Position numbers and translations under genes: made by a program | DNA from: Gammaproteobacteria bacterium 45_16_T64 | GTDB lineage: Bacteria; Pseudomonadota; Gammaproteobacteria; Pseudomonadales; Ketobacteraceae | Length of the DNA: 35,487 nucleotides | Assembly (NCBI GenBank): GCA_002162955.1 | Contig: MABD01000034.1 | Coordinates: forward strand, 135,941-171,427 | Reading direction: 5' to 3' | In this document: positions 5,311-28,542 of the stretch, piece by piece | Position numbering within the stretch: position 1 is the first letter of the stretch | Layout of the letters: each line of letters starts with the position of its first letter | Notes under the pieces: generated by a model | What the model saw: only the letters and a program-made list of their open reading frames with translations | Told to the model about the DNA's origin: nothing | The model's database searches: none

Positions 5311-5361
5311 CAACGTAATCCTTACTACACGCTAAGAAAACTGCAATAGAAACACTAGGGA

Positions 5362-6444: not shown

Positions 6445-6651
6445 ATGAGTAAAGGAACAGTTAAATGGTTCAACGCCGATAAAGGCTTCGGTTTTATTAC
6501 ACCTGAAGATGGCAGCAAAGATTTGTTTGTTCATCATTCAGAAATTCAAGCAGGCGGCGGGTATGCCACATTGAGTGATGGCCAGGCTGTTGAATTTGAA
6601 GTTGGCCAAGGTCAAAAAGGTCCTTGTGCAAACAAAGTTGTTCCTGTTTAA
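6445..6651 (+). CDS. Cold-shock protein (CspA family)
   Basis: A 68-aa single cold-shock domain that binds single-stranded RNA or DNA and melts RNA structure. The start [18 protein letters not shown] is canonical; RNP1 is KGFGFI and RNP2 is LFVHH. It ends [13 protein letters not shown], typical of CspA/CspE-type paralogues in marine gammaproteobacteria. A 13-nt tandem duplication (AAAATGAGTAAAG at 6429-6441 and 6442-6454) places an earlier ATG at 6432 that opens an out-of-frame 6-codon ORF overlapping the true start. The real start is at 6445 by homology. A GC-rich hairpin follows. Confidence 0.95.
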
Positions 6652-6673
6652 GCGGCAACACGTAGTAAGCAAT

Positions 6674-6709
6674 GCAGTCGGACGGCTTCGCCGCCCGCTG
6701 CTTTGTTCG
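6674..6709 (+). terminator. GC-rich hairpin terminator after the cold-shock gene
   Basis: GCAG (6674-6677) pairs with CTGC (6698-6701), enclosing CGGC-TTC-GCCG (6683-6693). The stem is interrupted but GC-rich and is followed by TTTGTTCGTT. It begins 22 nt after the stop codon. Confidence 0.6.
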
Positions 6710-6758
6710 TTACCAATATCACATGTTAGTAATCTATATATTATTAAGACGACCTAGC

Positions 6759-7391: not shown

Positions 7392-7433
7392 TGCGACTCC
7401 CAGCTCAATTCTGCCCACCTAGGAGTATAGGTG

Positions 7434-12826: not shown

Positions 12827-13636
12827 TCACACTCGATTAGCGTTCTTTTGACTTTCTGCGTGCTGATCAGTCAGTCTGGATATCTGGTCCAAACTTTTAT
12901 CAAGAATCTTCATCGACTGATCTATTCGTTCGTCCTGATCTTGAACAATAGAACGATGCGCCGTTTCAAATGCTTCATGTTTCCTCACATCGGCATCGGC
13001 AATGGCCGCATTATGCTCAGCACCTGCGCTCGATACTTGACCTAAACCATCTGTCAACGTGGTAATACCTTGCCCAATAATCAATGCAGAGCCGGTATTG
13101 CTTACCAACGGTGCCAATCGACTGGTAATAGCGCTAAGCATACCCGGTTTTGACGCCACACTTGCAGCACCACTTGCCGAACTAGCAGCACGGCCAGCGG
13201 CACTAGCAGCAGTGATCCCAATCCCCATCGCGAGCGCACCCCCCACAATCGACAGTGAGCCAGTAATCAGCTGAGCCGTCTTGCGTTCAGAGGCTGCCTC
13301 TCGCATCTTAGACGATTGATCAATCTGATCTTGCACCACTTGTTTACGATCTTCACGTCGACTAATTTTTTCGCTTTCATTACGTTCAATCTGTAACTTG
13401 GCGATTTCATAAATCATACTTTGCGCCTGAGTAAAAAGATCCTTACCCGCAATGCTGCTACTTTCTAGCTCCGGCGCATTGTTCACAGTACCACTATTAC
13501 TTCCTGAGGTACGACTTGACGATACCAACGGTTGATTATTGTTAAAGCTCGACGTGACGCGTGCATCTGCATTTGGCAGATCATTCACACCGCCGAGCGA
13601 TGGTTGTACTTCTTGACCAACACTTGCTATATCCAT
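12827..13636 (-). CDS. sctB: T3SS translocon pore subunit SctB (YopD/SseD/EspB-like)
   Basis: Predicted minor translocator that inserts with SctE into the host membrane to form the entry pore. Architecture fits the YopD/SseD class at 269 aa: a polar Ser/Asn-rich N-terminus, a coiled-coil segment (about residues 65-118), one hydrophobic Gly/Ala-rich segment (about 121-160) and a C-terminal amphipathic coiled coil (DQDERIDQSMKILDKSLDQI). It has no Sec signal peptide, as expected for a T3 substrate. It is the last gene of the leftward operon, directly after sctE and downstream of an SycD-type chaperone gene, the fixed position of this subunit. Sequence identity to any named homologue is not obvious by eye, so the call rests on architecture and order. 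Confidence 0.78.
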   Translation of the reverse strand: MDIASVGQEVQPSLGGVNDLPNADARVTSSFNNNQPLVSSSRTSGSNSGTVNNAPELESSSIAGKDLFTQAQSMIYEIAKLQIERNESEKISRREDRKQVVQDQIDQSSKMREAASERKTAQLITGSLSIVGGALAMGIGITAASAAGRAASSASGAASVASKPGMLSAITSRLAPLVSNTGSALIIGQGITTLTDGLGQVSSAGAEHNAAIADADVRKHEAFETAHRSIVQDQDERIDQSMKILDKSLDQISRLTDQHAESQKNANRV

Positions 13637-13672: not shown

Positions 13673-14956
13673 TTAAATTCGCATGGCGGCTGCATTGCTT
13701 TCAAATGACCCTTCAAACATTGATCGGACGAGAGAAAAACCACGATTCATATCGTTAATGGCGGTATTGTAATCCTCAATACCCTCACGAACTTTATCTC
13801 CATACCAAGTAATCAACGAATCAATCTCTACAGTATCCGCTTGAATATTTCCGGCTTCTTCAGTAATTTTACCCACGGTAATCTCACTGCTGCCTTTTCC
13901 AACACCTCCCACGCCGGTAGTGACCATACCCAAACTAATCACTTTATTGGCCACCCTTTCAAAGTCATCCGCATTTTGCATGGTTTTCAAACCCACCTTC
14001 TCAGCGATAGATGCCGAATTGCTGGATAATTTTGACCCCACATAAGCACCGCCATTGGCCATACCTTTTAGCACGTAAACAATTATGTCGATAGCCTGCT
14101 TTACTACAGGGGCATTACGTATTTGAGAACCCGCTGACATCAATATTTCAGCGACATCATCCAGTAACTTAAGTGCTGTTTTAGGTAATTCTGTCGCTAG
14201 CCGTGCGCCAACATCTTTAACATTTTGAGCCATTTTTGCAATCATCTGCGCGCCTTTCGCACCTGCGCCAGCCGCCGCACCACCTAAGGATAAAGCGATT
14301 GATACGCCAGTGATTAACCAATTGGCCGCCTCTTCCTTTTCTTCTTGCGTCATGTCAGAACTTGCAAAGAGTTCAGCAACTCCCTTTGCAAACCAACCGC
14401 CTGTTTCCATTGATATTTGGTTCACTAGGCCAATCGTTGCCCCCGCCATTAACGCTGCCCCTGCTGGTGCACCCACAACGGTTAACGTAAGTACCGCAGC
14501 AACAATAAACGATGCAATTGTCGCAACCCAACCAAAAATACGGGATAGCTTGCCTGCTTTTTCTTGTTCAGCCATTTTGTCGCGCAGTTCATCCATTTTT
14601 TCCGACAAAAATTGCGTCTGATCCGCTGATAGCTGAGAGTTTACTTTTACCGTAACTTCAGAATTTTGAATCTTCTGTTGTGCCGATTCGGTTTTGGCGA
14701 GCAATATTTCAAATAACAATGCTTCATTACTATGTCCGCTAGGAAAATGGATGGGTGCTTGAAGCACAGGCGCCCCTCCAGTATTACCCGCGGAAGCCGC
14801 AGATGTATTCGCATCCTGTTGCCGCGTAATGGCTGGATTCGGTATTCGCTCATCTCGATTAACACCACGTTGATCAGACGTCTGATCCAATGTGGTTACA
14901 CCACTGTCTGGCCCCGATAAAGCGACTACACCATCCGATGCAGTATTTATATCCAT
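13673..14956 (-). CDS. sctE: T3SS translocon pore subunit SctE (YopB/SseC/IpaB-like)
   Basis: Predicted major translocator of 427 aa. A polar N-terminal region (1-75) precedes a coiled coil (about 85-135, with SAQQKIQNSE and FLSEKMDELRDKMAEQEKAGK). The conserved hydrophobic block RIFGWVATIASFIVAAVLTL (about 139-158) leads through a glycine-rich hairpin to GWFAKGVAELFA. A second hydrophobic segment follows at about 212-235 (NWLITGVSIALSLGGAAAGAG). This two-helix pattern and the W/G-rich turn are diagnostic of the IpaB/SseC/YopB family. The start has GAGGAT 8 nt upstream. It begins 34 bp after the SycD-like chaperone gene, its expected partner. Both translocators start with MDI, possibly a shared secretion or translation-start feature. 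Confidence 0.88.
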   Translation of the reverse strand: MDINTASDGVVALSGPDSGVTTLDQTSDQRGVNRDERIPNPAITRQQDANTSAASAGNTGGAPVLQAPIHFPSGHSNEALLFEILLAKTESAQQKIQNSEVTVKVNSQLSADQTQFLSEKMDELRDKMAEQEKAGKLSRIFGWVATIASFIVAAVLTLTVVGAPAGAALMAGATIGLVNQISMETGGWFAKGVAELFASSDMTQEEKEEAANWLITGVSIALSLGGAAAGAGAKGAQMIAKMAQNVKDVGARLATELPKTALKLLDDVAEILMSAGSQIRNAPVVKQAIDIIVYVLKGMANGGAYVGSKLSSNSASIAEKVGLKTMQNADDFERVANKVISLGMVTTGVGGVGKGSSEITVGKITEEAGNIQADTVEIDSLITWYGDKVREGIEDYNTAINDMNRGFSLVRSMFEGSFESNAAAMRI

Positions 14957-14990: not shown

Positions 14991-15503
14991 TTATGGTTTA
15001 GTTTGTAATTTATTTTGCAATTTCGTCTCCAGCACCGTCATCATGGTTTCTGATTTTCCATGTAACGTGCTGTGAATTTCAATTCCAGCTGACCACTCAT
15101 AAGCTGCCGTAAATCCGCTGAGGGCTTCCTGCATATTTCCCATAGCCATATGGCATTCAGCAGCACGAAAAGGTGGAATCGGATCATTACAATCCAATAC
15201 CATGGCAAAAGAATATGCCTCAATAGCCTCCTTATACTGCTTTTCCATTTGTCGGCAAGCCGCTAAACCAAGGACATATTTTTGATCATACGGGCTTATA
15301 AGACAAAGAAACTTGAATACGTCTAATGCATCAGAAAAACGCCCGCTTTGATAAAAGTTAAAGGCAACGCCATAGCAGGCCTCAATTGACTTTTCATCAA
15401 TTCCTTTCGCGTCTTTAACCGGGACTCCCGTCGCATAAAATTCTTCAATCAAACGTTGTATGGCTTCTTTGCCGACCAATGTACTGGTCTGAGTCGCTGT
15501 CAT
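14991..15503 (-). CDS. T3SS translocator chaperone, SycD/LcrH/SscA family (TPR)
   Basis: A 170-aa cytoplasmic class II chaperone that keeps the two pore-forming translocators soluble before export. Three tandem tetratricopeptide repeats are visible: CYGVAFNFYQSGRFSDALDVFKFL, KYVLGLAACRQMEKQYKEAIEAYSFA and PFRAAECHMAMGNMQEALSGFTAA. The start of the second (YVLGLAACRQ) and the DP-PPFRAAEC stretch are hallmark SycD/IpgC sequence. It lies immediately upstream of sctE and sctB. In Yersinia the homologue also feeds back on regulation; whether it does so here is unknown. Confidence 0.92.
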   Translation of the reverse strand: MTATQTSTLVGKEAIQRLIEEFYATGVPVKDAKGIDEKSIEACYGVAFNFYQSGRFSDALDVFKFLCLISPYDQKYVLGLAACRQMEKQYKEAIEAYSFAMVLDCNDPIPPFRAAECHMAMGNMQEALSGFTAAYEWSAGIEIHSTLHGKSETMMTVLETKLQNKLQTKP

Positions 15504-15516
15504 GGTATATTCCTTA

Positions 15517-15999
15517 TTAACGCATATTTCCGATCAATGTACCTTTCGATTGATTCGATTTGGATAGCACATTCGATAACATTTCATTGGTTTGGTTGTA
15601 TTTACTTACTGCCGCCTGAAGCTTAACCATATCCAATTGGGAGGTACTGGTAAGGCTTTCATTCTTCGTTTTCAATTTCTCGATATTATTTTCCCAACCA
15701 TTATTCGGTGGATCATCATTTAGTCCACCGGTAGTCACATCTAACCCCATTTCCGCAAAAAAATCTTTTACCTCTTGAGGGACACTACCGCTCTTATCTT
15801 GTTTAAGATCCCGTAGCTGATTCAATATTTCATTGGATTGCTTAAGAACAACATTCTTATTCTTAATCTCTTCTATTTTTGATCGGACGTCCTGATTAAG
15901 AAGGTCTGACCTTTCTGCTAACACCGCCGTAATTAATGCATCCAGTGACAATTCACCCGCCGCTTGCGCAATACCGATTCCGCCAACTGCTTCTACCAT
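15517..15999 (-). CDS. EspA/SseB-like T3SS tip or filament protein, short paralogue
   Basis: A 160-aa protein with the layout of the EspA/SseB family, the extracellular filament or platform between needle and translocon. It has an N-terminal helix (LLNQDVRSKIEEIKNKNVVLKQ), then VPQEVKDFFAEMGLDV (73-88), which resembles the EspA/SseB VPxxVxxYxxxxGI segment, and a C-terminal coiled coil ending LSNVLSKSNQSKGTLIGNMR. The C-terminus and N-terminal helix are clearly shared with the 341-aa protein upstream, so the two are paralogues; this one lacks the DUF1521 insert. No signal peptide. It sits 13 bp before the SycD-type chaperone gene. An LcrV-like tip is the alternative, but length and the VPxxV segment favour EspA/SseB. 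Assignment is by my own alignment. Confidence 0.65.
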   Translation of the reverse strand: MVEAVGGIGIAQAAGELSLDALITAVLAERSDLLNQDVRSKIEEIKNKNVVLKQSNEILNQLRDLKQDKSGSVPQEVKDFFAEMGLDVTTGGLNDDPPNNGWENNIEKLKTKNESLTSTSQLDMVKLQAAVSKYNQTNEMLSNVLSKSNQSKGTLIGNMR

Positions 16000-16058: not shown

Positions 16059-17084
16059 CTAGCGCATGTTACCTATAAAGGTACCCATGGATTGATTCTC
16101 TTTCGACAACATATTCGATAACTGTTCGAAGGCCTGCTTTAGCAAGTTATTGGCTTGCTGCATTTTTATGGTCTCCAGACTGCCTGTTTGGCTTAACCCT
16201 TCCTTAAACGTATCCAATTTTTCAATGACGTTTTCCCATTGAGATGGCGTTAATTTTTGGTTTACCGACAAGTCGTGACTGATACCGTTGCTATTCATAA
16301 AGTTAACCAGATCTTGTGATACACCAGGAATACTATCCTCTGCACTGGCTACTTCAGCGGTGCCAGGGCCATTCATTGCCTGATTAACGGTAATTTCATC
16401 GCCACTTGCGTTAAACCAATCATTTGCCCCATCAGCGCCTTCATAGAACACGTACCCGTCCACCGTATTTTTATCGGTGTTTTCAGTAATCGCATTTAGG
16501 TTAACGCTACCTATATTCACCTGGTTGTCGCGAATACCGGTAACGCTGACTTGTTGATTACCTTTAGTAATGGTTAACGTATCAGAGTAAGAAACACGCC
16601 CGTTTGGACTCAACTCTGTGCCCACCGTAATTTTGGTGCCATCTTTCAACACAAAGGTCGCGTCGTGCTTAAAGTCCCAGTCCGTACCATTAGCCCCATC
16701 TTCATCCACATGGGGGTCACCCCAAATACGTGTCTGATTGCCCTGGTCATCCTTGATATACCATTCCTGACGAGTATCCGAAAAACTCAGTTCATAGCCA
16801 TTATCCAAGGCAATGGATCTATTTCCATCCACCACCCAAGTCGGCTCATCGACCATAATTCCCTGGGATTCTCGACTAATATCCCGCACATCCAAACGGC
16901 TATCCAACGATTGTTTAATGCGTTCATTATTATTTTTGATCTTATCGATTTTTTCTCTAAGATCTCCTGTTAATAAATTGGCCCTATCCATTAATGCTGT
17001 CGATATCTCTGCCATCAACGTTGCACCATCGATTGATTCTGCTACCGATGCCACCACGCCACTTGAGGTTGCTTCTATACTCAT
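16059..17084 (-). CDS. EspA/SseB-like T3SS protein with inserted self-cleaving DUF1521 (MIIA) domain
   Basis: A 341-aa predicted T3 substrate with three parts. Residues 1-62 are an N-terminal helix (LLTGDLREKIDKIKNNNERIKQ) shared with the 160-aa paralogue. Residues about 82-235 form a DUF1521 domain with the motif WGDPHVDEDG (121-130); by homology to NopE1 of Bradyrhizobium, the chain is cut between Asp123 and Pro124 when calcium or another divalent metal binds. Residues about 253-341 return to the EspA/SseB-like scaffold (VSQDLVNFMNSNGI, then a coiled coil ending LSKENQSMGTFIGNMR). The acidic Asp/Asn-rich stretches around the motif suit metal binding. It has no signal peptide. Gene position matches sseB/espA. 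Cleavage would leave fragments of about 123 and 218 residues. The DUF1521 call is strong; the filament role is inferred. Confidence 0.8.
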   Translation of the reverse strand: MSIEATSSGVVASVAESIDGATLMAEISTALMDRANLLTGDLREKIDKIKNNNERIKQSLDSRLDVRDISRESQGIMVDEPTWVVDGNRSIALDNGYELSFSDTRQEWYIKDDQGNQTRIWGDPHVDEDGANGTDWDFKHDATFVLKDGTKITVGTELSPNGRVSYSDTLTITKGNQQVSVTGIRDNQVNIGSVNLNAITENTDKNTVDGYVFYEGADGANDWFNASGDEITVNQAMNGPGTAEVASAEDSIPGVSQDLVNFMNSNGISHDLSVNQKLTPSQWENVIEKLDTFKEGLSQTGSLETIKMQQANNLLKQAFEQLSNMLSKENQSMGTFIGNMR

Positions 17085-17208: not shown

Positions 17209-17553
17209 TTAAATGAACGATCGGTGTCGGGATCGCTTTACTCTATTATTCACCCCGTTATTTTCTATAGAACCAGCATCCGTTGAGGAATGACTCACCT
17301 GTTGATCCTGCCCGGATGATTTTTCCAATTGGTTGAGCATAAGACGTACTTTATTCTCATCGACAGCGTTATAACCGTAGGCTTTTCTCACGCGATCCAG
17401 TGTAGAATCCTCTACCCCGAGGGCACCCATAATTCTCAGCTGCTCTTCCAATTGCTGTTCTATTTTTCCGATAATAAGTTCATTCTCATAAACCAATGCC
17501 AAAAGATCGTCATCACTGAGTGACGAATCTCCATATTGAGGGTTATGTTTCAT
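17209..17553 (-). CDS. Small T3SS-operon protein, putative chaperone (SseA/CesAB- or LcrG-position)
   Basis: A 114-aa acidic-to-basic protein that leads the translocator operon. Residues about 13-75 are predicted helical and coiled-coil (LLALVYENELIIGKIEQQLEEQLRIMGALG, then LDRVRKAYGYN and KVRLMLNQLEKS). The tail is polar and ends in the basic RVKRSRHRSFI. No domain is recognised. In SPI-2 the gene before sseB is sseA, a roughly 108-aa helical chaperone for SseB and SseD; in Ysc systems the equivalent place holds lcrG, also small with a basic tail. Either role fits. The function is inferred from position only. Confidence 0.5.
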   Translation of the reverse strand: MKHNPQYGDSSLSDDDLLALVYENELIIGKIEQQLEEQLRIMGALGVEDSTLDRVRKAYGYNAVDENKVRLMLNQLEKSSGQDQQVSHSSTDAGSIENNGVNNRVKRSRHRSFI

Positions 17554-17755: not shown

Positions 17756-18913
17756 ATGTCTACCCCGCTACACGCTATTGCTCAGTTACAACACACCGCC
17801 TCGTCAGTGGACAAGCCTGCGTCCCAGCAAGCGACCGGTCAGTTTCGAGGGGAAAATGTAAAGGTTGAGGTTAATACTAAGTCCATGCTTGCTTCCGCCG
17901 CTGAGGAAATGTCGTTTATGCGGGCGGAGAAAAAAACACTCGATGTATCCAAACGAAAAATCAATGACAAAACATCGATCGATCTAAATGCCATCGAGAA
18001 AGCCCAGGACTATCTTGAAAAAGCCAACGACGTCAATAAAGACAAACATCTAAAACCGTTGCTTGATCAGTTATTACGGCAAACCGATACCTCACCGCGC
18101 CAGCTCCAACAAAACATTCAGCAGGCATTTAAAGACCCATCACAGCAGTACGTAGCATTGCTGTATATCAAAGCCGAACTGGAGAAAAAGAGACGCAGGT
18201 CACCGTTATCAAGCCACGAAGAATCCTTGCTCTCTGCAACTGAAACCTTGCTGGATGAGATGGCATCAAGCCAGGCATCAGCAATTGCAGCGGGAATTAA
18301 TATTACTACCGTTGCCTCTAGCAACGCCTCCGACAAGCTTGGATCAATCAATGGTTTACGCCAATTTTATCGCGATTCCGTACTCGATTACGGCGGATTA
18401 TCCGCCACCTTCAAGACCATTATTGAAGAGCACGGGGAGGAGAGTATTGCGGGTTCCATTATGTTCCTTATTAAAGCCCTGGGTGCAGATATTTCCTCCG
18501 AGGGCCCATCCATTCCCAAAGCCCGTTTACAGATGATCGTTGACGACATGTATAAGCTGCAATCCCTCGGTAGCATACATAATGAATGTACCGAGTTACT
18601 GCAACAGATACAGCGTATCTATGCCCATGTAGACACGCCAACAAATGTGACATTGATGGATAAATTACTGGAGTTAGTGGAAAAAAAATGGGTTAACGGC
18701 ATTAAAATATCGCAAATGGCGCAACAATTGTTATCCAATGCCTCCGATGTAGAACCTTATTTTTTACGGGGTATGAAAGAGATCATTCGTGCCATTCCCA
18801 TCAAAACCTTTGCCGATCCCTTCGACCGAGACAAACTGATTTTGTCTGTCCAAGAAGCATTGGATATTGTTGTCGATGCCGAGGAATCCCGCTTAGAGAA
18901 TAGCAATCCATGA
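17756..18913 (+). CDS. sctW: T3SS gatekeeper SctW (YopN-TyeA fusion type; MxiC/SepL/InvE family)
   Basis: A 385-aa cytoplasmic switch protein that blocks early export of effectors and sets translocator-before-effector order. The N-terminal 60 residues are polar and may carry a secretion signal. The middle is all-helical, with the HrpJ-domain pattern (RQLQQNIQQAFKDPSQQYVALLYIKAEL). The C-terminal about 90 residues (MDKLLELVEKKWVNGIKISQMAQQL to FDRDKLILSVQEALDIVVDAEES) look like TyeA. The length equals YopN plus TyeA, so this is the fused form. The start has GGAATAGG just upstream. It heads the export operon and overlaps the next gene by 4 nt, suggesting translational coupling. Confidence 0.85.
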   Translation: MSTPLHAIAQLQHTASSVDKPASQQATGQFRGENVKVEVNTKSMLASAAEEMSFMRAEKKTLDVSKRKINDKTSIDLNAIEKAQDYLEKANDVNKDKHLKPLLDQLLRQTDTSPRQLQQNIQQAFKDPSQQYVALLYIKAELEKKRRRSPLSSHEESLLSATETLLDEMASSQASAIAAGINITTVASSNASDKLGSINGLRQFYRDSVLDYGGLSATFKTIIEEHGEESIAGSIMFLIKALGADISSEGPSIPKARLQMIVDDMYKLQSLGSIHNECTELLQQIQRIYAHVDTPTNVTLMDKLLELVEKKWVNGIKISQMAQQLLSNASDVEPYFLRGMKEIIRAIPIKTFADPFDRDKLILSVQEALDIVVDAEESRLENSNP

Positions 18914-19284
18914 ATACAACACAGCATTACTCAGTCATCGATCATTTTCTCCATCAACTGGGTATCGATACCCTCCATTGGGATGGTTCACCACTGACTC
19001 TCACCTTCGACGAAAATGGCACCCTTAATCTTGATGCTAATCAACGAGGAGTGATATTGGCGCTAACGCAGAAAATTGACGACTATCAGCTAGAGTCCAT
19101 CGCCTCCAAGGTCTTGCGTGCTATTCATCTTGATCAACGGCTACCTTTCCCCGTTCAAGCGGGGTTAAAAGGCGATCACGACTTGGCATTGATTATCGTT
19201 CTTAGGGATGAAGACGTCGACCTATCAAATGTCAATCAAGCACTGTCTCTTCTCATTCACTTACACGAACACGTAAACCAATAA
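18910..19284 (+). CDS. T3SS chaperone, SycN-like
   Basis: A 124-aa small class I-type chaperone. By my alignment it follows Yersinia SycN across its length: IDHFLHQLGI at the start, a short beta strand with GTLNLD, an RLPFPVQAGLKGDHDLALIIVLRDEDVDL segment matching the [22 protein letters not shown] region of SycN, and a C-terminal helix of the type QALSLLIHLHEHV. SycN with YscB binds the N-terminus of YopN to help hold the gate shut. Its place directly after sctW and before the yscX-like gene is the Yersinia order. No yscB-like partner is seen in the window. Confidence 0.72.
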   Translation: MNTTQHYSVIDHFLHQLGIDTLHWDGSPLTLTFDENGTLNLDANQRGVILALTQKIDDYQLESIASKVLRAIHLDQRLPFPVQAGLKGDHDLALIIVLRDEDVDLSNVNQALSLLIHLHEHVNQ

Positions 19285-19297
19285 CAAGGGTATTTTT

Positions 19298-19690
19298 ATG
19301 GACCTTATTACATTTAATCAGGGCATAGAAGGGATACAGCCTTATGATACCGAGCAACACTCCCCGCAGTTACCCAAAGAGTCTTCTTTTGTTCCTCTTG
19401 GGCAGAGCATAGAACAACACACACAAACACTGTTCAATAATGATTCTCTCAACAGTGAGCGGTTCTCATCTCTTGCCAATCCAGATACTTATCTTTCCGT
19501 GGACGCCGACCGATTTACCGATCTTATTCGAGACACACTCGCCACCTTACAGTCAACAGTCCAATCACCGAGTCCCCCTGACAATCCGCGGGAGCTCGTG
19601 ATATTCCATCAAGCCATCACTGTTATGGCAGAATTATCCTCGGACAGAGAATTGCTCCTAACCCACCTCCATGCACTCAATCGTGTATAA
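19298..19690 (+). CDS. YscX-like T3SS protein
   Basis: A 130-aa protein matching YscX by position and by weak similarity: a polar N-terminus, a central LANPDTYLSVDADRFTDLIRDTLATLQS that aligns with the YscX FASPGYTF segment and following helix, and a C-terminus LLLTHLHALNRV like LLQIILNLLHKV of YscX. YscX is an early secreted protein needed for export by Ysc injectisomes; it binds YscY and SctV. AAGG lies 11 nt upstream of the ATG. YscX/YscY pairs are known only from the Ysc class, so this gene places the export apparatus in that class. Similarity is low and judged by eye. Confidence 0.65.
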   Translation: MDLITFNQGIEGIQPYDTEQHSPQLPKESSFVPLGQSIEQHTQTLFNNDSLNSERFSSLANPDTYLSVDADRFTDLIRDTLATLQSTVQSPSPPDNPRELVIFHQAITVMAELSSDRELLLTHLHALNRV

Positions 19691-19703
19691 CGCAGGCCAA
19701 CTT

Positions 19704-20036
19704 ATGTTAACAACAGAACAACAACGCTTGCTGCAAACCACCGCCAGTGTCTATCTACAGTATCAGCAATACGACAAGGCATCCCCTTTATTACAACTAT
19801 TACTTTTTCTGTTTCCTCATGATGAAAGTGTACATCGCCAACTCGCTTACCTTCACTACCAACAAGCCGATTATGACACCGCCATACGTGGTTGCGACCT
19901 ATTTTTGAGGTCAGGCCATGCCCCACAATCAGCTTGGCCCTATTTAATAAAGAGTTTCAGCTTTCACAAACTGCATCAACCAGATGATGCTCACACCAAC
20001 TATCAACGTTACATCGCCGCAGGACCCTTCTCATGA
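19704..20036 (+). CDS. YscY-like TPR chaperone of YscX
   Basis: Predicted 110-aa TPR protein. The ATG at 19704 gives [20 protein letters not shown], parallel to the YscY start (TKRQQEFLLLNGWLQLQ), and has AGG 7 nt upstream; the alternative ATG at 19671 lies inside the preceding gene. TPR-like helices follow ([39 protein letters not shown]) and the end [13 protein letters not shown] resembles the YscY end KARHAYQHYLEL. YscY binds YscX and the cytoplasmic domain of SctV. It overlaps sctV by 4 nt (ATGA), indicating tight coupling. Confidence 0.7.
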
Positions 20037-22123
20037 ACGTGAGCCAGCTCAATCATGCAGTGCGGTTTATCACCGCTAGAAAAGATATCATGATCGCATT
20101 AATGCTAGTCGCCATGATATTTATGATGATTCTTCCATTACCCACTGAACTGGTTGATGTGTTGATTGGTCTCAATATGGGGTTAGCCGTTGTACTGCTT
20201 ATGGTAGGCGTATATATTGGCTCACCATTAGAGTTTGTCGCCTTTCCCTCCGTACTGCTGATATCCACGTTATTTCGATTGTCACTATCCATTACCACTA
20301 CCCGTCTGATTCTTCTTGAAGCGGATGCCGGATCTATTATCGAAACCTTTGGTAACTTTGTTGTGGGCGGTAATCTTGTGGTTGGCCTGGTTATCTTCTT
20401 GATTATCACAGTTGTGCAATTTCTTGTAATCACTAAAGGTTCTGAACGCGTGGCCGAAGTCAGCGCGCGGTTCTCGCTAGATGCCATGCCTGGCAAGCAG
20501 ATGAGTATAGATGGAGATCTTCGTGCTGGCGTGATTGATGTCGACGAGGCACGACACCGCCGCTCAATGGTACAAAAAGAAAGTCAGCTTTACGGCTCAA
20601 TGGACGGCGCGATGAAATTTGTGAAAGGCGACGCCATTGCCGGTATTGTGATTATCATTGTGAATATACTTGGGGGTATTTCCATCGGCACCATGCAGCT
20701 GGGCATGTCTACCGGGGAAGCACTGGAACTGTACTCGATACTCACGATTGGCGACGGACTCGTGGCGCAAATACCCGCCCTATTTATTGCGATTACCGCC
20801 GGTATTATTGTCACCCGAGTTACCACCGATGAATCGGAAAACTTAGGCACCGACATTTCCAATCAGATCGCCAGTAAACCCCAAGCCCTATTGATTGGTG
20901 GTGGAATATTATTCGCCTTTGCGTTAATCCCTGGGTTCCCTACCCTCACCTTTATTGTATTGGCCTTGATGGTGACCGCCACCGGTTATGGTATCTTGCG
21001 TAAAGAAAAACGCGCTCGTGCCGATGTCGGAGCGAATATTATGCCAGCCCTAGCCGCCGCCGGACAGCCCGCTCCCAAAGCGCAGCTTTCAGAAACTGAA
21101 GAATTTACCATTACCGTTCCTCTGTTAATTGAGATTTCCAGTGATTGTGAAACCTCTTTTGATATTAACGAACTCAACGACGAGATACTCAAGATACGCC
21201 GCGCACTCTATCTCGACCTTGGAGTACCCTTCCCCGGAATTCACCTGCGTTTTAACAGCCAACTCGCCAGCGGCCATTATGTCATTCAACTACAAGAAAC
21301 ACCGATCGCCGAAGGCACATTACGCCCCAATCAGATTCTTGTGCGAGATCAAAAAGAGCAACTGGAATTATTGTCCATCGAGCATGATCAAGAAATCGAA
21401 TTCTTGCCAAATACTCCCGCTCACTGGGTACCGCAAACCCATCAACATTCACTCGACAAAATGGCCATTAATTATCTCACGCCGCCGCGAGTACTCAGTT
21501 ATCATCTCTCGATTATTCTGCAAAAGTATGCCAATGATTTTATTGGTATTCAAGAAACCCGCTACCTTCTTGAAAAGATGGAAGGCCCCTATAGCGAATT
21601 AGTAAAAGAAGTACAACGATTGCTACAAGTACAGAAAATCACAGAGATATTTCAGCGTTTAGTGTCGGAGGATATTTCCATTCGTAATCTTCGCAATATC
21701 CTCGAAGCCTTAGTTGAATGGGCCCAAAAGGAAAAAGAAACGGTATTACTCACTGAATACGTACGCAATAATCTACGACGCTATATCAGTTACAAATACA
21801 GTAACGGTCAAAATATACTGCCTGCTTACTTAATGGATCAGCAACTAGAAGACACTATTCGCAATGGTGTGCGTCAAACGTCTGCCGGATCATATCTCGC
21901 ATTAGACCCAGATACCACTCGACACATAGTAGAAACTACCAAGCGGATTGTCGGTGATATCCATCTGCAAACCCATAAACCCGTGCTCGTCACCTCCATG
22001 GATATTCGCCGCTACATTCGTAAGCTTCTCGAGAGTGATTTGCGCCAACTCCCGGTGCTTTCCTATCAAGATCTAACGCCTGAGATTACGGTACAACCAC
22101 TCGCGAGAATCACGCTCTCATAG
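20033..22123 (+). CDS. sctV: T3SS export gate SctV (LcrD/YscV/FlhA family)
   Basis: A 696-aa inner-membrane export gate protein that forms a nonameric ring and uses the proton gradient. The N-terminal half has about 7-8 TM helices, including [20 protein letters not shown]. The FHIPEP family core [22 protein letters not shown] and the cytoplasmic loop [21 protein letters not shown] are both clearly present. The C-terminal half (from about residue 345) is the soluble ring domain, which includes [10 protein letters not shown] and the [17 protein letters not shown] region. Length matches LcrD (about 700 aa). Confidence 0.97.
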
Positions 22124-22230
22124 CGTGGTCTTCGCCTAATGGAAAATAGACCTCCAGGCTGATATTGCCGCCCCCTCGATTCCCTTATTCTAGCGATCAA
22201 TCCATCGAAAAGAATAAGCCTTCGAATCCT

Positions 22231-23574
22231 ATGCAGACTGTCCCAAGCACACATTCACCACTTGCATCACGAACAACCAAGTTACGACAATTGGTGGAGC
22301 GCACCGATTTTACCCAGGTGCGCGGCAAAGTCAGCGAGGTGGTCGGCACCATCATTCGCGCCTCGGTGAATGGTGTCAAAATTGGCGACCTATGCCACCT
22401 GGTTGACCCGAACACCCAACAACGTTTCGTTGCCGAAGTAATCGGCTTTTCCAAGCAAGAGGCATTACTCACGCCGATTAATGATATCGACGGGTTATCC
22501 GCGAACACCGAGGTAATTCCCAGTGGGCAAAGCCAACAAATGGCGATGAGCGACGCGCTATTGGGCCGAGTGCTCAACGGACTGGGTGAACCCATTGATG
22601 GCGCTGGACCGATCGATACAGGTCAGCCATACCCCATTATCAACCGTCCCCCTAACCCCATGACTCGCTCGCTGATTGACAGGCCCATCCAAACCGGTGT
22701 TCGTGCCATTGATGGGTTACTCACCTGTGGTCAAGGCCAACGGTTGGGTGTATTCGCGTCGGCTGGCGTGGGTAAAAGTTCATTACTCTCCATGATCACC
22801 CGTGCAACCGATGCCGATATTATTGTGATTGGTTTGATTGGAGAGCGCGGCAGAGAAGTTAGGGAGTTTATCGAACGCGACCTCGGTCCTGAAGGCCGGA
22901 AAAAATCGGTAGTCGTGGTGGCAACCTCCGACAGGCCCGCTATGGAACGGGTCAAAGCCGCCCACGTTGCCACTGCCGTAGCAGAATACTTTCGTGATCA
23001 AGATAAACGGGTCCTGCTATTAATGGATTCAGTCACTCGGTTTGCCAGAGCACTGCGTGAAATTGGACTCGCCGCCGGTGAGCCCCCCGCCCGACGTGGC
23101 TTTCCCCCCAGCGTATTTGCCAGTTTACCGAAACTATTAGAACGCGCTGGCCCTGCGAAAAAAGGCTCCATTACCGCGCTGTATACCGTACTCGTCGAAG
23201 GCGACGATATGACAGAACCCGTTGCCGATGAAGTACGCTCGATCCTTGATGGACATATTGTGCTTTCTCGCGAGCTGGCGGAAGCCGGTCATTTTCCTGC
23301 CATTGATATTCTGGCCAGCACAAGCCGTGTCATGAATGCAATTACCCAGCAAGATCATCAGGCCCATGCCACACGGCTACGCCAATTATTAGCAAAATAT
23401 AAGGAAATTGAGTTGTTAGTAAAAATTGGAGAGTATCAACCTGGTAGCGATGTAGAAGCCGATGCCGCCATTCAGGCAATGGATGCTATTAAACGGTTTT
23501 TGGTTCAGCGTAACGACTCACCCCAAACGTTCGATGAGACCTTGCATGAATTATCTAAAGTAGTGTCCTTATGA
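22231..23574 (+). CDS. sctN: T3SS ATPase SctN (YscN family)
   Basis: Hexameric cytoplasmic ATPase that strips chaperones and unfolds substrates at the export gate. Walker A is [10 protein letters not shown] (Lys182 from the chosen start), the [13 protein letters not shown] loop follows, and Walker B is [37 protein letters not shown], unmistakable for the SctN/FliI family. The N-terminal beta-barrel includes [27 protein letters not shown]. The ATG at 22231 gives about 447 aa, close to YscN; an in-frame TTG at 22165 would add 22 residues but has no homologous counterpart. Neither has a strong ribosome binding site, so the start is uncertain. The stop overlaps the ATG of the next gene. Confidence 0.96.
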
Positions 23575-24059
23575 TGCGAGATGTGGTCGAGCTAAGCCAA
23601 TATAAAACCCGCATTCAATTGCGTAAAGTCAATCAATCAACTCTCGCCGTAGTGGAATCAAAAGCCGCATGGGAAGAGATCAAACAACAACAAGAAGACT
23701 ATACCCAATGGCAACTGGCTGAGACTCAGCGATTATTTGATGCGTTGGCGGCAAAACCCGCCACCACCGAACAACTAAAAACCTACAACAGCACCCTTGC
23801 CACATTTAAGCACACCCTACTCTCACTGAACAAAAATCTGTCTATTGCAGAAAGTGAATACTCCCGGGATCGTGATCAACTGACACAAGAGAAACAACAG
23901 TTACATCAACTACAGAATAAACAAGAAAAATTCGAATACGTATCTCATCAATTGGACGACATCGTCGCAAACCAACGTCGACAAAAAGAAGAAGAGCAGG
24001 CAATGGATGATCACTCGTCTATCTCTCAAACAATCACCTTTATCTCCAAGGAGCGATAA
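23571..24059 (+). CDS. sctO: T3SS stalk protein SctO (YscO/FliJ-like)
   Basis: A 162-aa protein, almost entirely charged coiled coil, with two long helices ([20 protein letters not shown] to [10 protein letters not shown], and [29 protein letters not shown] to [18 protein letters not shown]). This is the layout of YscO and FliJ, the central stalk that couples the SctN hexamer to SctV. It sits between sctN and the sctP-like gene, as in Ysc operons. The ATG overlaps the sctN stop; a second ATG follows directly. Confidence 0.8.
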
Positions 24060-24062
24060 GTA

Positions 24063-24707
24063 ATGTCTGTCTCAACGCCACTATTGAATACGCCACAGGA
24101 TTCCCAAAGAAAGGCACCTAACCGCTCAGCTCAAGCCTCTATCAACCCACCGGATTCAGACGTTAATGAGCGCTTCCATCGCCATTTATCCCCCCAAGAA
24201 GACGAGGCAGCAAGTGCTACCGCCAAACACAACCGCGATTCCTCTGGAGAACAACAACAGCAACCCGATGACGAGCCGCACCAACGTGTACTGACCGCAG
24301 ATAGCCTTGGTTTATTACCCGGAGACAAAATGCTTAAAACCATTGGGATCTCGACATCCAATACCCCCACGCCGCTGGTCAACGATCTCAGCCATAAGAT
24401 AAGTCAACTCGTGGACAAAATGTGGGTAACCTCCTCCACCATAGCGGGTAATCAATCCGATATCATACTTCAGCTAAAACACGGTACGTTAACCAATACC
24501 GATTTACATATTCGCCAGTCTGAAAAAGGGCTGTCCATACAATTTGTCACCAGCGATAGCCAAAGCGCGCAACTCCTGGCGACAAACCAACTACAACTGC
24601 GAAGACAACTACAAAAAAAATACACCATTGACACCATAGAAATAGAACACACCGTAGCAGATCAGCCACACAACAAACACACTGAGGCTCATCCTTTATG
24701 GACTTAA
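24063..24707 (+). CDS. sctP: T3SS needle-length / substrate-switch protein SctP-like (short)
   Basis: A 214-aa protein. The N-terminal half is disordered, rich in Pro, Gln, Asp and Glu (DSSGEQQQQPDDEPHQ), and should serve as secretion signal and short ruler. The C-terminal half (about residues 105-205) fits the T3S4 / FliK-like switch domain: hydrophobic and polar strands SDIILQLKHGTLTNTDLHI, GLSIQFVTSDSQSAQLLA, then NQLQLRRQLQKKY. At 214 aa it is far shorter than YscP (about 500 aa), suggesting a short needle. It lies between sctO and sctQ, as in Ysc operons. The call rests mainly on position and layout. Confidence 0.72.
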   Translation: MSVSTPLLNTPQDSQRKAPNRSAQASINPPDSDVNERFHRHLSPQEDEAASATAKHNRDSSGEQQQQPDDEPHQRVLTADSLGLLPGDKMLKTIGISTSNTPTPLVNDLSHKISQLVDKMWVTSSTIAGNQSDIILQLKHGTLTNTDLHIRQSEKGLSIQFVTSDSQSAQLLATNQLQLRRQLQKKYTIDTIEIEHTVADQPHNKHTEAHPLWT

Positions 24708-25786
24708 CCACGGATCATATTATCCATGCGCTATCCCTACCCCGAGTGGATGCAATACCCTACGTACCGTTAAGGTTTGATCTCAGCGGGGCTAAAGTGA
24801 CGGCAACGCGCGTAGCGCCGCTACAAGAAGAACAACGCAACCTTCCCTATTGCATTCATTACCAGATCGACGGACACGCCTTCAGTGTCAGTATCGACAG
24901 CACCCTACTGGATCAACTGCTGGCGAACCTCCCCAGTGCATTGCCACTCGCCGCTCTTCCCCCAGCGATACAATTTGCGTTGATGCAAACCGCGATGGCT
25001 CCATTCATTGAATCCATCGAGGCACACACCAACCTTGCCATTGCGGTATCGGGATTTGATTGTGTTGATACTGTAAATGACACTACAAGAAACATAATAG
25101 AAGACATTCCGTGTTCGGATTATTCAACGTCTTCAAAGACTACAACCCTAGAATTTCGTTGCGTACTCAATAATAGACCTTGCTTGGCGTCACTCTCTAT
25201 CAGCAGCAACGCGTTGCCTTCAATAACAACCTTATTTAGCCACGCGCAATCAACCCCAGTACGTATCGACGTCAATGCCATCCCCATTACCTTTTCCGTG
25301 CATCTGCCGGGTCTCAAAATTGGCTTACAAGAACTCACTGAATGTCGGGTACACGACATTCTTTTGCTATCGAATAGCCATGACCAATTATTACAGGCAG
25401 TCGAATTACGGATTAACTATCAACTAATTGGCTACGGCCGTATAGAAGACAACGCCATTCACATTACTCGCACCACAATAGGATCAGCTATGGAAACCTC
25501 ACTCGATGAACATCATCCCACCGACGAATCTATTGATACCTTGGACACATTTGATCATCTACCGGTAACCGTAACATTCGAAGTTGCACAACAACAGTTC
25601 AGTATTGCAGAGTTAAAAACCTTGTTTGAAGGGCACGTTATCCCGCTGGACAAACCTCTCACGTCACCTATCGTCGTGCACGCCAACGGTAAACGAATCG
25701 CCAGCGCTGAATTAGTCAACCTAAACGATCGTCTAGGCGCACGTATCACCGAATTGTTTGCCACACAAGAGATGCCTCATGACTGA
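24698..25786 (+). CDS. sctQ: T3SS sorting-platform / C-ring protein SctQ (YscQ-like)
   Basis: A 362-aa cytoplasmic platform protein. The N-terminal two thirds vary in this family. The C-terminal SpoA/FliN-like domain is visible: LPVTVTFEVAQQQFSIAELKTLFEGHVIPLDKPL followed by VHANGKRIASAELVNLNDRLGARI, the typical beta-strand pattern with the conserved Gly-Arg turn. An earlier SpoA-like segment is at ITFSVHLPGLKIGLQELTECRVHDILLL. It overlaps the previous gene by 10 nt and the next by 8 nt. An internal start for a short SctQ-C product, known in Yersinia, may exist, for example near the ATG at 25491, but this is not shown. Confidence 0.88.
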   Translation: MDLTTDHIIHALSLPRVDAIPYVPLRFDLSGAKVTATRVAPLQEEQRNLPYCIHYQIDGHAFSVSIDSTLLDQLLANLPSALPLAALPPAIQFALMQTAMAPFIESIEAHTNLAIAVSGFDCVDTVNDTTRNIIEDIPCSDYSTSSKTTTLEFRCVLNNRPCLASLSISSNALPSITTLFSHAQSTPVRIDVNAIPITFSVHLPGLKIGLQELTECRVHDILLLSNSHDQLLQAVELRINYQLIGYGRIEDNAIHITRTTIGSAMETSLDEHHPTDESIDTLDTFDHLPVTVTFEVAQQQFSIAELKTLFEGHVIPLDKPLTSPIVVHANGKRIASAELVNLNDRLGARITELFATQEMPHD

Positions 25787-26426
25787 GATGCCTGATCCGT
25801 TTTACTTAATATTTGGCTTGGCGGCGGTAGCATTGGTTCCGTTTGTTGCCGTCATGACCACGTCGTTTGTTAAAATTGCAGTGGTTATCGGTCTGCTGAA
25901 AAATGCACTGGGGATACAGCAAATACCACCCAACATGGCAGTGCATGGATTAGCGATTATTCTCACAGCTTATATCATGGCTCCCGTTGGCATAGCCACT
26001 TTCGAGGCCATCGAAGAAAACCCAGTATCATTAGAGAATACCGATGAACTCAAAGCGCTTCTAGAAACAGCCTCTGCACCGTATCGAGAATTTTTGGCAG
26101 AGCACGGCAATAAAGAAGAGCAGACTTTTTTTCTCGAAACCACGGCAGAAATATGGCCAGAGGACGTTGCTAAAACAGTTACCGAAGATAGTTTATTTGT
26201 GTTAATACCTGCTTTTACCGTCAGCGAGCTGACCAGCGCCTTTCAAATCGGATTTCTTATCTATCTTCCCTTTCTTGCCATCGACCTAATTATTTCCAAT
26301 ATATTGTTAGCCATGGGCATGATGATGGTGTCCCCGATGACCATTTCACTACCGTTTAAATTGCTGTTATTCGTATTACTGGATGGATGGACGCGATTAA
26401 TTCATGGCTTAGTACTGGCCTATTAA
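25779..26426 (+). CDS. sctR: T3SS export apparatus SctR (YscR/FliP family)
   Basis: A 215-aa inner-membrane protein that forms the export gate core with SctS and SctT. Typical segments: VALVPFVAVMTTSFVKIAVVIGLLKNALGIQQIPPNM, LIPAFTVSELTSAFQIGFLIYLPFLAIDLIISNILLAMGMMMVSPMTISLPFKLLLFVLLDGW, with an acidic loop between TM2 and TM3. The ATG at 25779 is chosen because AAGAG lies 7 nt upstream and it gives MTEMPDPFYLI; the ATG at 25788 is also possible. It overlaps the sctQ end by 8 nt. Confidence 0.96.
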   Translation: MTEMPDPFYLIFGLAAVALVPFVAVMTTSFVKIAVVIGLLKNALGIQQIPPNMAVHGLAIILTAYIMAPVGIATFEAIEENPVSLENTDELKALLETASAPYREFLAEHGNKEEQTFFLETTAEIWPEDVAKTVTEDSLFVLIPAFTVSELTSAFQIGFLIYLPFLAIDLIISNILLAMGMMMVSPMTISLPFKLLLFVLLDGWTRLIHGLVLAY

Positions 26427-26437
26427 AAGGATATTTC

Positions 26438-26710
26438 ATGTCTGAAGCCGACGTTATTCAATATACAACCAAAGCCCTGTTTCTGGTGTTATTGCTTTCA
26501 ATGCCCCCTATTATCGTTGCCTCGGTGGTGGGTGTATTGGTGAGTTTGTTTCAGGCACTCACCCAAATACAAGAACAAACATTGGCTTTTGCGATCAAAC
26601 TCGTCGCCATTGTTTTTACGTTATACCTCACTGCACGCTGGTTAGGGATAGAAATCTATAATTACTCGGTACTTATCTTCGACGCTATTCCCTCGGTTAG
26701 CAGCCTGTGA
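26438..26710 (+). CDS. sctS: T3SS export apparatus SctS (YscS/FliQ family)
   Basis: A 90-aa membrane protein with two TM helices (LFLVLLLSMPPIIVASVVGVLVSLFQALTQIQEQTL and IKLVAIVFTLYLTARWLG). The sequence QALTQIQEQTLAFAIKL is the FliQ/SctS signature. The ATG at 26438 is chosen because AAAAGG lies 7 nt upstream; the upstream in-frame ATG at 26387 is inside sctR and would add non-family residues. Confidence 0.96.
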   Translation: MSEADVIQYTTKALFLVLLLSMPPIIVASVVGVLVSLFQALTQIQEQTLAFAIKLVAIVFTLYLTARWLGIEIYNYSVLIFDAIPSVSSL

Positions 26711-27495
26711 ATCTTGTACCGGTCTACGACGCGTTTTACTTATTTATGCTCTCTTCCGCGCGTATCGCAGCCGTATTTACCATTATGCCGTTTCTCTCCA
26801 AACAAACCATGGGCAGCGCCATGATTCGCAACGGCGTGGTCGCCAGCCTTGCGCTGTTTATGTACCCCGCGGTGTCCGCCGACTACGCGTCTAGCTCACT
26901 CACTACGCTGGACACTGTAGTCACGCTGATTAAAGAAGTACTGCTAGGGTTAAGTATTGGTTATGTGCTTACGGTACCTTTTTGGGCCATCGAATCCGTC
27001 GGTTTTTTTATTGATAACCAACGTGGTGCTACGATGGCAAGTAGCCTCAATCCGTTATCCGGCTCACAGACGTCTCCTTTGGGCATATTACTCACGCAAG
27101 GGCTCGTCGCATTGTTTTTTATTAGCGGTGCATTTCTAGTCGCGTTAAGTGCGCTTTATCACAGTTACCTGTTGTGGCCCATTTTCGAATTTTACCCAAC
27201 CTTCTCTTCGCAAACTCCAGAGATTATGTTGGGCCAGCTCGACACCCTTATGCGCTATACCTTACTGCTAGGCGGACCAGTCGTCATCGCCATGTTCTTA
27301 TCCGAATTTGGTTTAGCCCTGGTGAGTCGTTTTGCACCACAACTCAACGTATTTATCTTATCGATGCCCATTAAAAGCGCCGTCGCCATTGCGGTTCTCG
27401 TGGTGTATATCCCCATCATATTTCATTTCTTTGGCGAGATATTGGCGGACCCCACGACGCTAATCTCTCCCCTCCACAGAATATTTTCCGGGTAA
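26707..27495 (+). CDS. sctT: T3SS export apparatus SctT (YscT/FliR family)
   Basis: A 262-aa inner-membrane protein with about 6-7 TM helices. Family motifs include LSSARIAAVFTIMPFLSK, LLGLSIGYVLTVPFWAIESVGFFIDNQRGA, PLGILLTQGLVALFFISGAF and FGLALVSRFAPQLNVFILSMPIKSAVAI. It starts with GTG at 26707, whose last two bases overlap the sctS stop. Confidence 0.96.
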   Translation: MNLVPVYDAFYLFMLSSARIAAVFTIMPFLSKQTMGSAMIRNGVVASLALFMYPAVSADYASSSLTTLDTVVTLIKEVLLGLSIGYVLTVPFWAIESVGFFIDNQRGATMASSLNPLSGSQTSPLGILLTQGLVALFFISGAFLVALSALYHSYLLWPIFEFYPTFSSQTPEIMLGQLDTLMRYTLLLGGPVVIAMFLSEFGLALVSRFAPQLNVFILSMPIKSAVAIAVLVVYIPIIFHFFGEILADPTTLISPLHRIFSG

Positions 27496-27501
27496 ATCTA
27501 C

Positions 27502-28542
27502 ATGAGTGAGAAAACCGAACAACCCACTGCAAAAAAATTACGTGAGGCCAGGGAAAAAGGTCAAGTTGCCCACAGCAAAGAAGTCGTGTCCACCGCGCTG
27601 CTGGCCAGTGTATATGCGTTGTTTTTTGCCAATAGTGATTATTTTCTGTCTCAGTTATTAGAAATTATCACCTTACCGTCTTTATATTACGATCTGCCAT
27701 TTTCCGATGCGCTAAAAAAAATCGTTGAAGGTATTATCGGAAAAAGTCTGAATATTCTTACTCCCATCGTAATACTGGTCATTATTGTTGGTGTTGTCTC
27801 AAACGTTGTTCAAGTAGGACCGCTACTTGCCTTTGAGTCCATCAAAATGGATATCAAAAAAATCAATCCCGCGGAAGGGGCAAAAAAGATATTTGCCATG
27901 AAGAACCTGGTTGAACTCATTAAATCCATATTCAAAATCGGATTTCTAAGTTCACTTGTCTATTGGGTTATTCATTCCAATCTCTATGACATTATTAAGT
28001 TACCCTATTGTGGATCATCTTGCTTACCCAGTTTAGTCGGGCACTTAATGGCCCAGATAGCCATCGTATCAGTGATCGCTTTTCTTATCGTCGCCGTCGC
28101 CGACTTCGTATTCCAGAAACACGATCACATCAAAAAACTCAAAATGACCATAGATGAGGTAAAACGGGAATACAAAGATAGCGAGGGCAATCCCGAAATT
28201 AAGAGTCAGCGCAAACAAATTCACCGAGAAATGCTCGAAGGCGGTATGATTGATGACGTTAAACGCTCATCAGTCATTGTCACCAATCCCACCCACTTTG
28301 CCATTGGTATTCAATATGATGGCGATACACGCACACTACCTATTGTCTGCGTAAAATCCACCAATCAACTGGCGCAACGGGTAAAAAAAATTGCCGCTGA
28401 GGCAGGTATACCCATGATCGAAAACGTCCCCCTCGCCCGTGCCCTCTACGCCCAGGCGGAACTCGATAACTATATCCCCTCAGAATTTATCGAACCCGTC
28501 GCAGATGTCCTCAAATGGGTGGCACAGCTCGACGACAAATAG
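27502..28542 (+). CDS. sctU: T3SS autoprotease / specificity switch SctU (YscU/FlhB family)
   Basis: A 346-aa inner-membrane protein. It opens with SEKTEQPTAKKLREAREKGQVAHSKE, the family hallmark, followed by four TM helices and a cytoplasmic domain. The autocleavage motif NPTH is intact (Asn262-His265, in VTNPTHFAIG); cleavage between Asn and Pro switches export from early to late substrates. The C-terminus VKSTNQLAQRVKKIAAEAGIPMIENVPLARALY is also typical. It is the last gene of the export operon, with 175 bp before the sigma factor gene; no strong terminator was seen there. Confidence 0.97.
   Translation: MSEKTEQPTAKKLREAREKGQVAHSKEVVSTALLASVYALFFANSDYFLSQLLEIITLPSLYYDLPFSDALKKIVEGIIGKSLNILTPIVILVIIVGVVSNVVQVGPLLAFESIKMDIKKINPAEGAKKIFAMKNLVELIKSIFKIGFLSSLVYWVIHSNLYDIIKLPYCGSSCLPSLVGHLMAQIAIVSVIAFLIVAVADFVFQKHDHIKKLKMTIDEVKREYKDSEGNPEIKSQRKQIHREMLEGGMIDDVKRSSVIVTNPTHFAIGIQYDGDTRTLPIVCVKSTNQLAQRVKKIAAEAGIPMIENVPLARALYAQAELDNYIPSEFIEPVADVLKWVAQLDDK

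Follow-up and report, generated by a model that had tools for sequence, protein, structure and literature searches.

A DUF1521 domain between two helical halves

The window analysed here, which is the whole stretch of 35,487 nucleotides from contig MABD01000034.1 (assembly GCA_002162955.1) of Gammaproteobacteria bacterium 45_16_T64, carries genes of a type III secretion system (T3SS). Among them is a minus-strand gene for a 341-amino-acid (aa) protein in which a DUF1521 domain appears to interrupt the scaffold of a needle-tip or filament protein, followed by the gene of a 160-aa paralogue that lacks the domain. The features of this gene pair, some of them defined with a hidden Markov model (HMM) of the paralogues described below, are the following.

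16059..17084, minus strand: tip/filament-type (SctA-like) protein with inserted DUF1521, 341 aa, ATG start
16848..17084, minus strand: N-terminal helical half, residues 1–79 (helical by sequence pattern; paralogue HMM and half-versus-half profile)
16386..16835, minus strand: DUF1521/MIIA domain, residues 84–233 (PF07481, E 1.8e-24)
16707..16724, minus strand: predicted self-cleavage motif WGD|PHV, residues 121–126, cut between D123 and P124 (conservation, and GD'PH of the literature)
16062..16346, minus strand: C-terminal helical half, residues 247–341, LcrV/VcrV-like (paralogue HMM and VcrV-type profile)
15517..15999, minus strand: paralogue without DUF1521, 160 aa, putative main tip/filament subunit (match to the flanks of the 341-aa protein)

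The initial annotation, which gave no strand, had described a 341-aa protein with WGDPHVDEDG at residues 121–130, had assigned it to DUF1521 on an EspA-like scaffold and had proposed HMM searches for DUF1521 and EspA as checks. The reading frame was confirmed on the minus strand, and the domain assignment was borne out by PF07481, which matches residues 84–233 at 87.1 bits against a Pfam cut-off of 23.6 and is the sole Pfam family found in the protein at E ≤ 0.1. The GD|PH(V) cleavage site is present at residues 122–126, with the Asp of GDPH at residue 123, and a cut at the predicted D123|P124 bond would yield fragments of 123 and 218 aa. When the protein is aligned with its relatives, DUF1521 sits between two conserved segments that directly adjoin in the proteins without it; as far as sequence can tell, an intact DUF1521 domain is thus set between two helical halves. 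Sequence searches of the PDB returned no match for the 341-aa protein (P0001) or for P0010. A PDB search with family profile A1 returned nothing relevant, and one with family profile A4 gave weak matches to PrgI-containing chains (E 0.16–1) and to keratin and other coiled coils (E 0.13–0.5). An EF-hand was also considered as a general feature of the C-terminal flank and rejected, the pattern being found after residue 200 in 6 of 22 tip-type proteins (canonical and at the same place in five, elsewhere in L024) and not in the window protein.

A divided scaffold shared with the paralogue

The 160-aa neighbour matches both ends of the 341-aa protein without its middle, with 33 of 59 residues identical at the C-terminal end (E 2e-16) and 27 of 81 at the N-terminal end (E 8e-9), in agreement with what had been claimed for the flanks. 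An HMM built from nine paralogues lacking DUF1521, the 160-aa neighbour included, and from no DUF1521 protein, recovers the same two flanks (residues 9–59, E 5.3e-9; residues 247–341, E 4.9e-17) through complementary parts of the model. Applied to 108 open reading frames (ORFs), this paralogue HMM matched both flanks in 25, corresponding to 22 distinct loci, three of which had been fetched twice; the rest comprised eight DUF1521-less paralogues themselves and 75 ORFs without a match at E ≤ 0.1, near-copies and the tip-type protein of genome G948 among them. Half-versus-half comparison of family profiles gave clear agreement of N with N (E 1.8e-21) and C with C (E 2e-36) and no agreement between crossed halves.

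The domain itself is not confined to this scaffold. Locus L018 (3940–5745) encodes a 601-aa protein whose DUF1521 is 56% identical to that of the window (query residues 82–237) and which, by the paralogue HMM, lacks tip flanks and is not of the tip type. This case suggests that the domain moves between scaffolds, because so similar a copy is found there without the flanks.

Relation to known needle-tip families

Profile comparison links the scaffold to tip proteins of the VcrV type, the name that we take to apply to proteins such as that of L118, which is an LcrV by Pfam (E 2.1e-29). The C-terminal half of the tip-type proteins matches a VcrV-type profile with probability 72 (E 3.3e-5), the C-terminal half of the paralogues does so with probability 94 (E 1e-7), and the whole paralogue profile matches that of seven VcrV-type tips with probability 92.8 (E 4e-7). 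Six T3SS controls (SycD, SctE, SctW, SctV, SctR and SctU) stay at or below 0.5 against the VcrV profile and, SctE excepted, at or below 0.7 against the paralogue profile. The paralogue of L025 barely passes the Pfam LcrV cut-off (E 9.5e-6, 25.5 against 25 bits), and a 415-aa protein of another genome matches both Pfam LcrV (E 8e-8) and the paralogue HMM (E 1.3e-7). Needle proteins are matched by the same HMM as well, a 90-aa one (PF09392, E 9.2e-12) at E 9.7e-7.

The proposed EspA-like scaffold therefore stands in part: the protein is of the tip/filament type and lies in the tip slot, and the link to LcrV/VcrV is better than that to EspA. No match to EspA (PF03433) above cut-off was found in the 341-aa protein or in the nine paralogues, a single one of which (L017) matches at all (E 0.0065, 16.8 bits against a cut-off of 23.4), and EspA membership was rejected. 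EspA/SseB proteins share with the family the size range of the DUF1521-less paralogue and this one weak match, but the tip proteins bearing DUF1521 show no significant EspA match, and we know of no EspA protein with such an inserted domain. Profiles place the scaffold closer to LcrV/VcrV than to EspA, the relation to LcrV/VcrV resting on the C-terminal half. LcrV/VcrV (PF04792) also has the tip slot before SycD/LcrH and the translocators in common with the window protein; it differs in that the window has a mid-protein DUF1521 and a paralogue without it alongside, with an N-terminal half that is unlinked and Pfam LcrV unmatched.

The tip slot and its recurrence

The genes surrounding the pair on the minus strand are the following.

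17209..17553, minus strand: 114-aa basic-tailed small protein, possible tip chaperone (LcrG/CesA-like by position only; no family match)
14991..15503, minus strand: SycD/LcrH-type translocator chaperone (TIGR02552, E 6.4e-40)
13673..14956, minus strand: major translocator SctE, SseC family (PF04888, E 2.5e-19)
12827..13636, minus strand: minor translocator, SctB-like (NF038055, E 2.9e-4, and PF04888, E 0.0017, both below cut-off; position)

The order thus runs from the 114-aa gene through the DUF1521 protein, the 160-aa paralogue, SycD/LcrH and the SseC-family translocator to the weakly matched SctB, and the 341-aa gene occupies the tip slot beside SycD-SctE-SctB. This corresponds to the lcrG-lcrV-lcrH-yopB-yopD order, the place of lcrV being taken by two paralogues. 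Small genes beside tip-type genes elsewhere encode products just 9–23% identical to the 114-aa protein.

A scan of the genome_contigs database with alignment A2, in which WGDPH was one of two patterns, yielded 197 relatives, the best 80 of which were kept. Fifteen loci were singled out, L018 for its domain, the most similar one, and L017, L019–L030 and L073 for matches that extend along most of the protein. The DUF1521-bearing tip gene, paralogue, SycD and SctE are consecutive in the window and in eight of these loci, from Photobacterium marinum (L017), Sulfidibacter corallicola (L019), a Pseudomonadota metagenome-assembled genome (MAG; L021), Acanthopleuribacter pedis (L022), a Competibacteraceae MAG (L025), a Holophagae MAG (L027), Algicola sagamiensis (L030) and Thalassomonas (L073), and the same four-gene order recurs in second copies (L139, L140). 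SycD and the paralogue were not found on the stretches examined of L020, L023, L024, L026, L028 and L029, where some contigs are short; the paralogue is present in all ten genomes searched for it.

The distinct tip-type loci number 34 altogether and come from Gammaproteobacteria and Acidobacteriota; they are made up of the 22 from the 108-ORF set, 11 from a search of the window's taxonomic order, and that of G948. Both scaffold halves were matched in order at E ≤ 0.1 in 32 of 33 loci, the N-terminal flank of L184 reaching E 0.24. The order search covered 390 genomes and found a match to the paralogue profile in 22, a split insert-bearing protein also being present in 18 of these and none being seen in the other four (G413, G414, G475 and G502). 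Four genomes of the same genus (84–96% complete) gave no match to the paralogue profile; the system is therefore accessory in that genus. Among 369 genomes of the class, PF07481 was found in the window's own genome only. In the family of Photobacterium marinum, 16 of 329 genomes match the tip alignment at E ≤ 0.001; the tip-type protein is complete in G754, G801 and G832, and G948 has a divergent form. The same family holds a locus (L116, G1089:C27) with four tandem paralogue-like genes of 168–189 aa lacking DUF1521.

A quick tree of DUF1521 domains, bearing on whether the tip type arose once and calculated without the near-copies L010, L012, L013 and L014 and without domain matches shorter than 80 aa, requires four label changes for the tip type, two of them forced by starred branches; its branches are long, and L112 is labelled 'other'.

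A second insertion

In locus L193 of G948, a Vibrionaceae-type genome, SycD-like and SseC-family genes come after a gene for a 188-aa protein, and about 5.5 kb downstream of this 188-aa gene lies a near copy of it that encodes a 373-aa DUF1521 protein. When the two proteins are aligned, 61 of 80 residues are identical on the N-terminal side and 88 of 109 on the C-terminal side; the interruption falls at residue 80, the place equivalent to that of the other tip-type proteins, and the matching halves of the longer one enclose a DUF1521 domain (E 3.8e-23) with GDPH. The 188-aa protein is unmatched by the paralogue HMM and by Pfam tip families; its putative tip role is drawn from position and from a weak CesA match of the preceding gene (E 0.015, below cut-off). 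Sequence comparison thus gives good evidence that more than one scaffold of this kind has received DUF1521 between its halves. What the initial annotation had seen in one protein is real and broader than stated: a recurrent tip-type architecture in two phyla, together with a second scaffold. Between the two tip-type genes of L193 lies a 538-aa ORF (7078–8694) with a weak IpgD match (E 1.5e-4, below cut-off).

A proposed self-cutting head on the needle tip

The reading that we favour, at a probability of roughly two in three, makes the 341-aa protein a second subunit of the injectisome's needle tip, or of a filament at the tip, that carries a head; once exported, this head would fold upon meeting calcium and cut its own chain. 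Both ends would belong to a helical tip scaffold related to LcrV, able to pair with the 160-aa paralogue or to assemble like it, and the DUF1521 head would fill the link between the two helical parts. At the sub-micromolar free calcium of the cytoplasm the head would be unfolded and uncut, a state suited to export through a narrow channel; outside, calcium would bind, the head would fold, and the chain would be nicked between Asp123 and Pro124. The 123-aa and 218-aa pieces may remain joined through their helices, and the cut could lock the head, prime the tip or form a link, acting as a post-export switch. The domain, its intact site, the homology of the scaffold, the place of insertion, the operon slot, the recurrence and the separate insertion on a second scaffold are shown by the sequences. 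Needle assembly, the response to calcium, cleavage and use as a switch we infer, because published work on DUF1521 points that way. The VIC_001052 domain of Vibrio coralliilyticus lacks order until calcium is added, whereupon it folds and cuts itself after Asp116 of GDPH; it binds two calcium ions with Kd ≤ 3.6 µM and is cleaved efficiently at 100 µM (PMC6506597).

These values lie far below the calcium of seawater and count against the proposal that seawater is the needed trigger. Two members from a WHONDRS metagenome (L021) and the Competibacteraceae MAG (L025) also count against it. Given the published affinity and the cutting at 100 µM, leaving the cytoplasm may suffice as a trigger. WHONDRS is a river project.

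Several observations weigh against the favoured reading. The N-terminal half shows no link to VcrV in the half-profile comparison; the 341-aa protein has no Pfam match above cut-off to LcrV (PF04792), EspA (PF03433) or IpaD; and Pfam LcrV is found at E ≤ 1 in only two of the nine paralogues. SctE, the highest control, reaches probability 15.4 (E 0.0017) against the paralogue profile, and the 341-aa protein does not have the canonical EF-hand-like loop seen in five relatives. For five of the six loci without neighbours (L020, L024, L029, L026 of G736 and L028 of G719), the paralogue, SycD and the translocators lie on another contig, which implies that the DUF1521-bearing tip gene can stand apart from the translocon operon. 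The cleavage site, finally, is absent from 14 of the 34 tip-type proteins, all of family f8 (taken as Endozoicomonadaceae), and the order search with the paralogue profile, which is free of the motif and dominated by f8, found GDPH in 4 of 18 insert-bearing proteins and not in the other 14. Cutting cannot be essential in these f8 lineages, since so many of their proteins lack GDPH; on sequence grounds it appears dispensable there.

How injectisomes sense outside calcium or contact is an old question, and a tip with a calcium-triggered self-cleaving domain would put the sensor where it is needed. The arrangement could also signal, from within the protein itself, that export has taken place. The idea is open to test through the two paralogues, one bearing the domain and one lacking it, through the second insertion and through the lineages in which the site is lost. 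The findings further suggest that MIIA, a domain discussed until now in the context of effectors, is a T3SS component that can move. A bolder version, which we hold tentatively and consider rather doubtful, is that in some injectisomes a tip subunit was duplicated and, on two scaffolds or more, gained a self-cleaving GDPH head resembling those of mucins, the tip thereby sensing export or host calcium as it folds and cuts itself and possibly welding itself to a neighbour. In that case a protein of the T3SS would itself be what senses calcium outside the cell.

Conservation and loss of the cleavage site

The strongest alternative, unlikely in our view, is that the folded DUF1521 is a structural, outward-facing head and that self-cleavage is incidental or lost in many lineages. 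The losses in f8 speak for it, the domain remnant persisting in proteins without GDPH (in L175 and L176 it is detected by a whole-protein profile only), and three of these proteins, of 679–688 aa (L175, 932–2998; L176, 845–2887; L177, 1010–3049), carry an extra insert of about 300 aa inside the remnant. Cleavage at GDPH in a VWD domain of FCGBP, moreover, stabilises that protein (PMC10880436). Set against this, GDPH is kept in 20 of the 34 tip-type proteins, across Acidobacteriota and several gammaproteobacterial families, three f8 members included (G702, G719 and G736), and W121–V126, E128 and W136–F138 are invariant in all 15 full-length relatives of alignment A3, a conservation that is partly selected because WGDPH was a pattern of the scan that supplied most of the rows.

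Comparison with known self-cleaving proteins

That the protein works as a NopE-like secreted effector, released or injected, with borrowed tip-like ends serving as an export or chaperone signal, seems to us improbable. NopE1, cut at GD'PHV (PMC9185962), and NopE2 are counted as effectors (PMC9569860), and VIC_001052 is a putative effector (PMC6506597); the position of the gene away from the paralogue and SycD in five genomes would fit such a role. These Bradyrhizobium and Vibrio proteins share with the window protein the DUF1521 domain, the GD|PH site and an association with a T3SS, and their calcium-induced self-cleavage is established in the literature, but they lack tip-like flanks. No architecture outside DUF1521 common to the window protein and the NopE-type effectors was found with the paralogue HMM, and all other DUF1521 ORFs scored, Bradyrhizobium ones and L113 among them, have flanks that it leaves unmatched, whereas both scaffold halves occur in order in nearly every tip-type locus and the gene takes the tip slot in the window and eight further loci. 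L113 is probably VIC_001052 itself, since its D133-W189-W240 spacing equals the published D116-W172-W223 if the protein, then of 370 aa, starts 17 residues later; the expectation that VIC_001052 would have the same tip architecture was accordingly rejected. The statement that no tip or filament protein with DUF1521 had been described held in a literature search of titles and abstract openings, subscription journals being mostly outside it.

Least probable of all is a clip-and-link reaction in which a reactive Asp anhydride would join the N-terminal piece to a lysine residue, whether on an adjacent subunit, on a translocator or on a protein of the host, and so weld the tip: FrpC makes a calcium-triggered Asp-Pro cut after which isopeptide links are possible (PMC7078468), but its self-processing module is a different domain, of RTX proteins, the literature search found no report of cross-linking by DUF1521, the FrpC paper makes no mention of NopE, and DUF1521 has its GDPH core in common with VWD, whose cleavage is described as hydrolytic in a paper that does not use the word anhydride (PMC10880436).

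The likeness to VWD domains, as in mucins and FCGBP, takes in a WGDPH...(D)G..DF....F.L core by profile and the Asp-Pro self-cleavage (PMC10880436), but it is local only: bacterial VWD profiles, from six of eight VWD loci after two without GD[PA]H were dropped, match DUF1521 with probabilities of 76 (61 columns) and 69 (42 columns). PF00094 (VWD) had no match in five genomes with DUF1521-bearing tips and was not among the best 25 of 32 families.

Other features of the window and of related loci

Further T3SS genes lie on the opposite strand of the window.

17756..18913, plus strand: gatekeeper SctW, HrpJ and TyeA (PF07201, E 1.2e-26; TIGR02568, E 7.1e-41)
18910..28542, plus strand: export apparatus genes (profiles for SctX, SctV and SctQ; homologues in related clusters)

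SctX and SctV exceed their profile cut-offs, and SctQ lies just under the NCBIfam and over the Pfam FliMN_C one; SctY, N, O, P, R, S, T and U were named from sequence and gene order, and one 124-aa ORF is unnamed. The needle gene is found away from the window, on G000:C10 (PF09392, E 2.8e-21), with neighbours that by eye are SctD, SctG and SctI. The SctU-like protein (27502–28542) has the motif NPTH, which we take to be the known self-cleavage motif of the SctU family, and two self-cutting proteins, it and the DUF1521 tip protein, may serve this system. A leucine-rich-repeat-like ORF was seen by eye near the T3SS genes (30012–30689).

In Myxococcota, a DUF1521 gene directly precedes a SycD-like gene at L060, L063, L064, L066, L067, L071, L074, L082, L087, L089 and L093. 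T3SS-like export genes stand beside several of the myxococcal loci, the flanks are unrelated to the tip scaffold where compared, and the domains share a large clade of the tree with most tip-type domains. These proteins were considered as tip-type and rejected, having no profile match to the paralogue or to VcrV. L067 also contains, beside its myxobacterial T3SS-like cluster, several near-identical copies of an ORF of about 93 aa ending in MAMSVIRNIGG (4912–7142).
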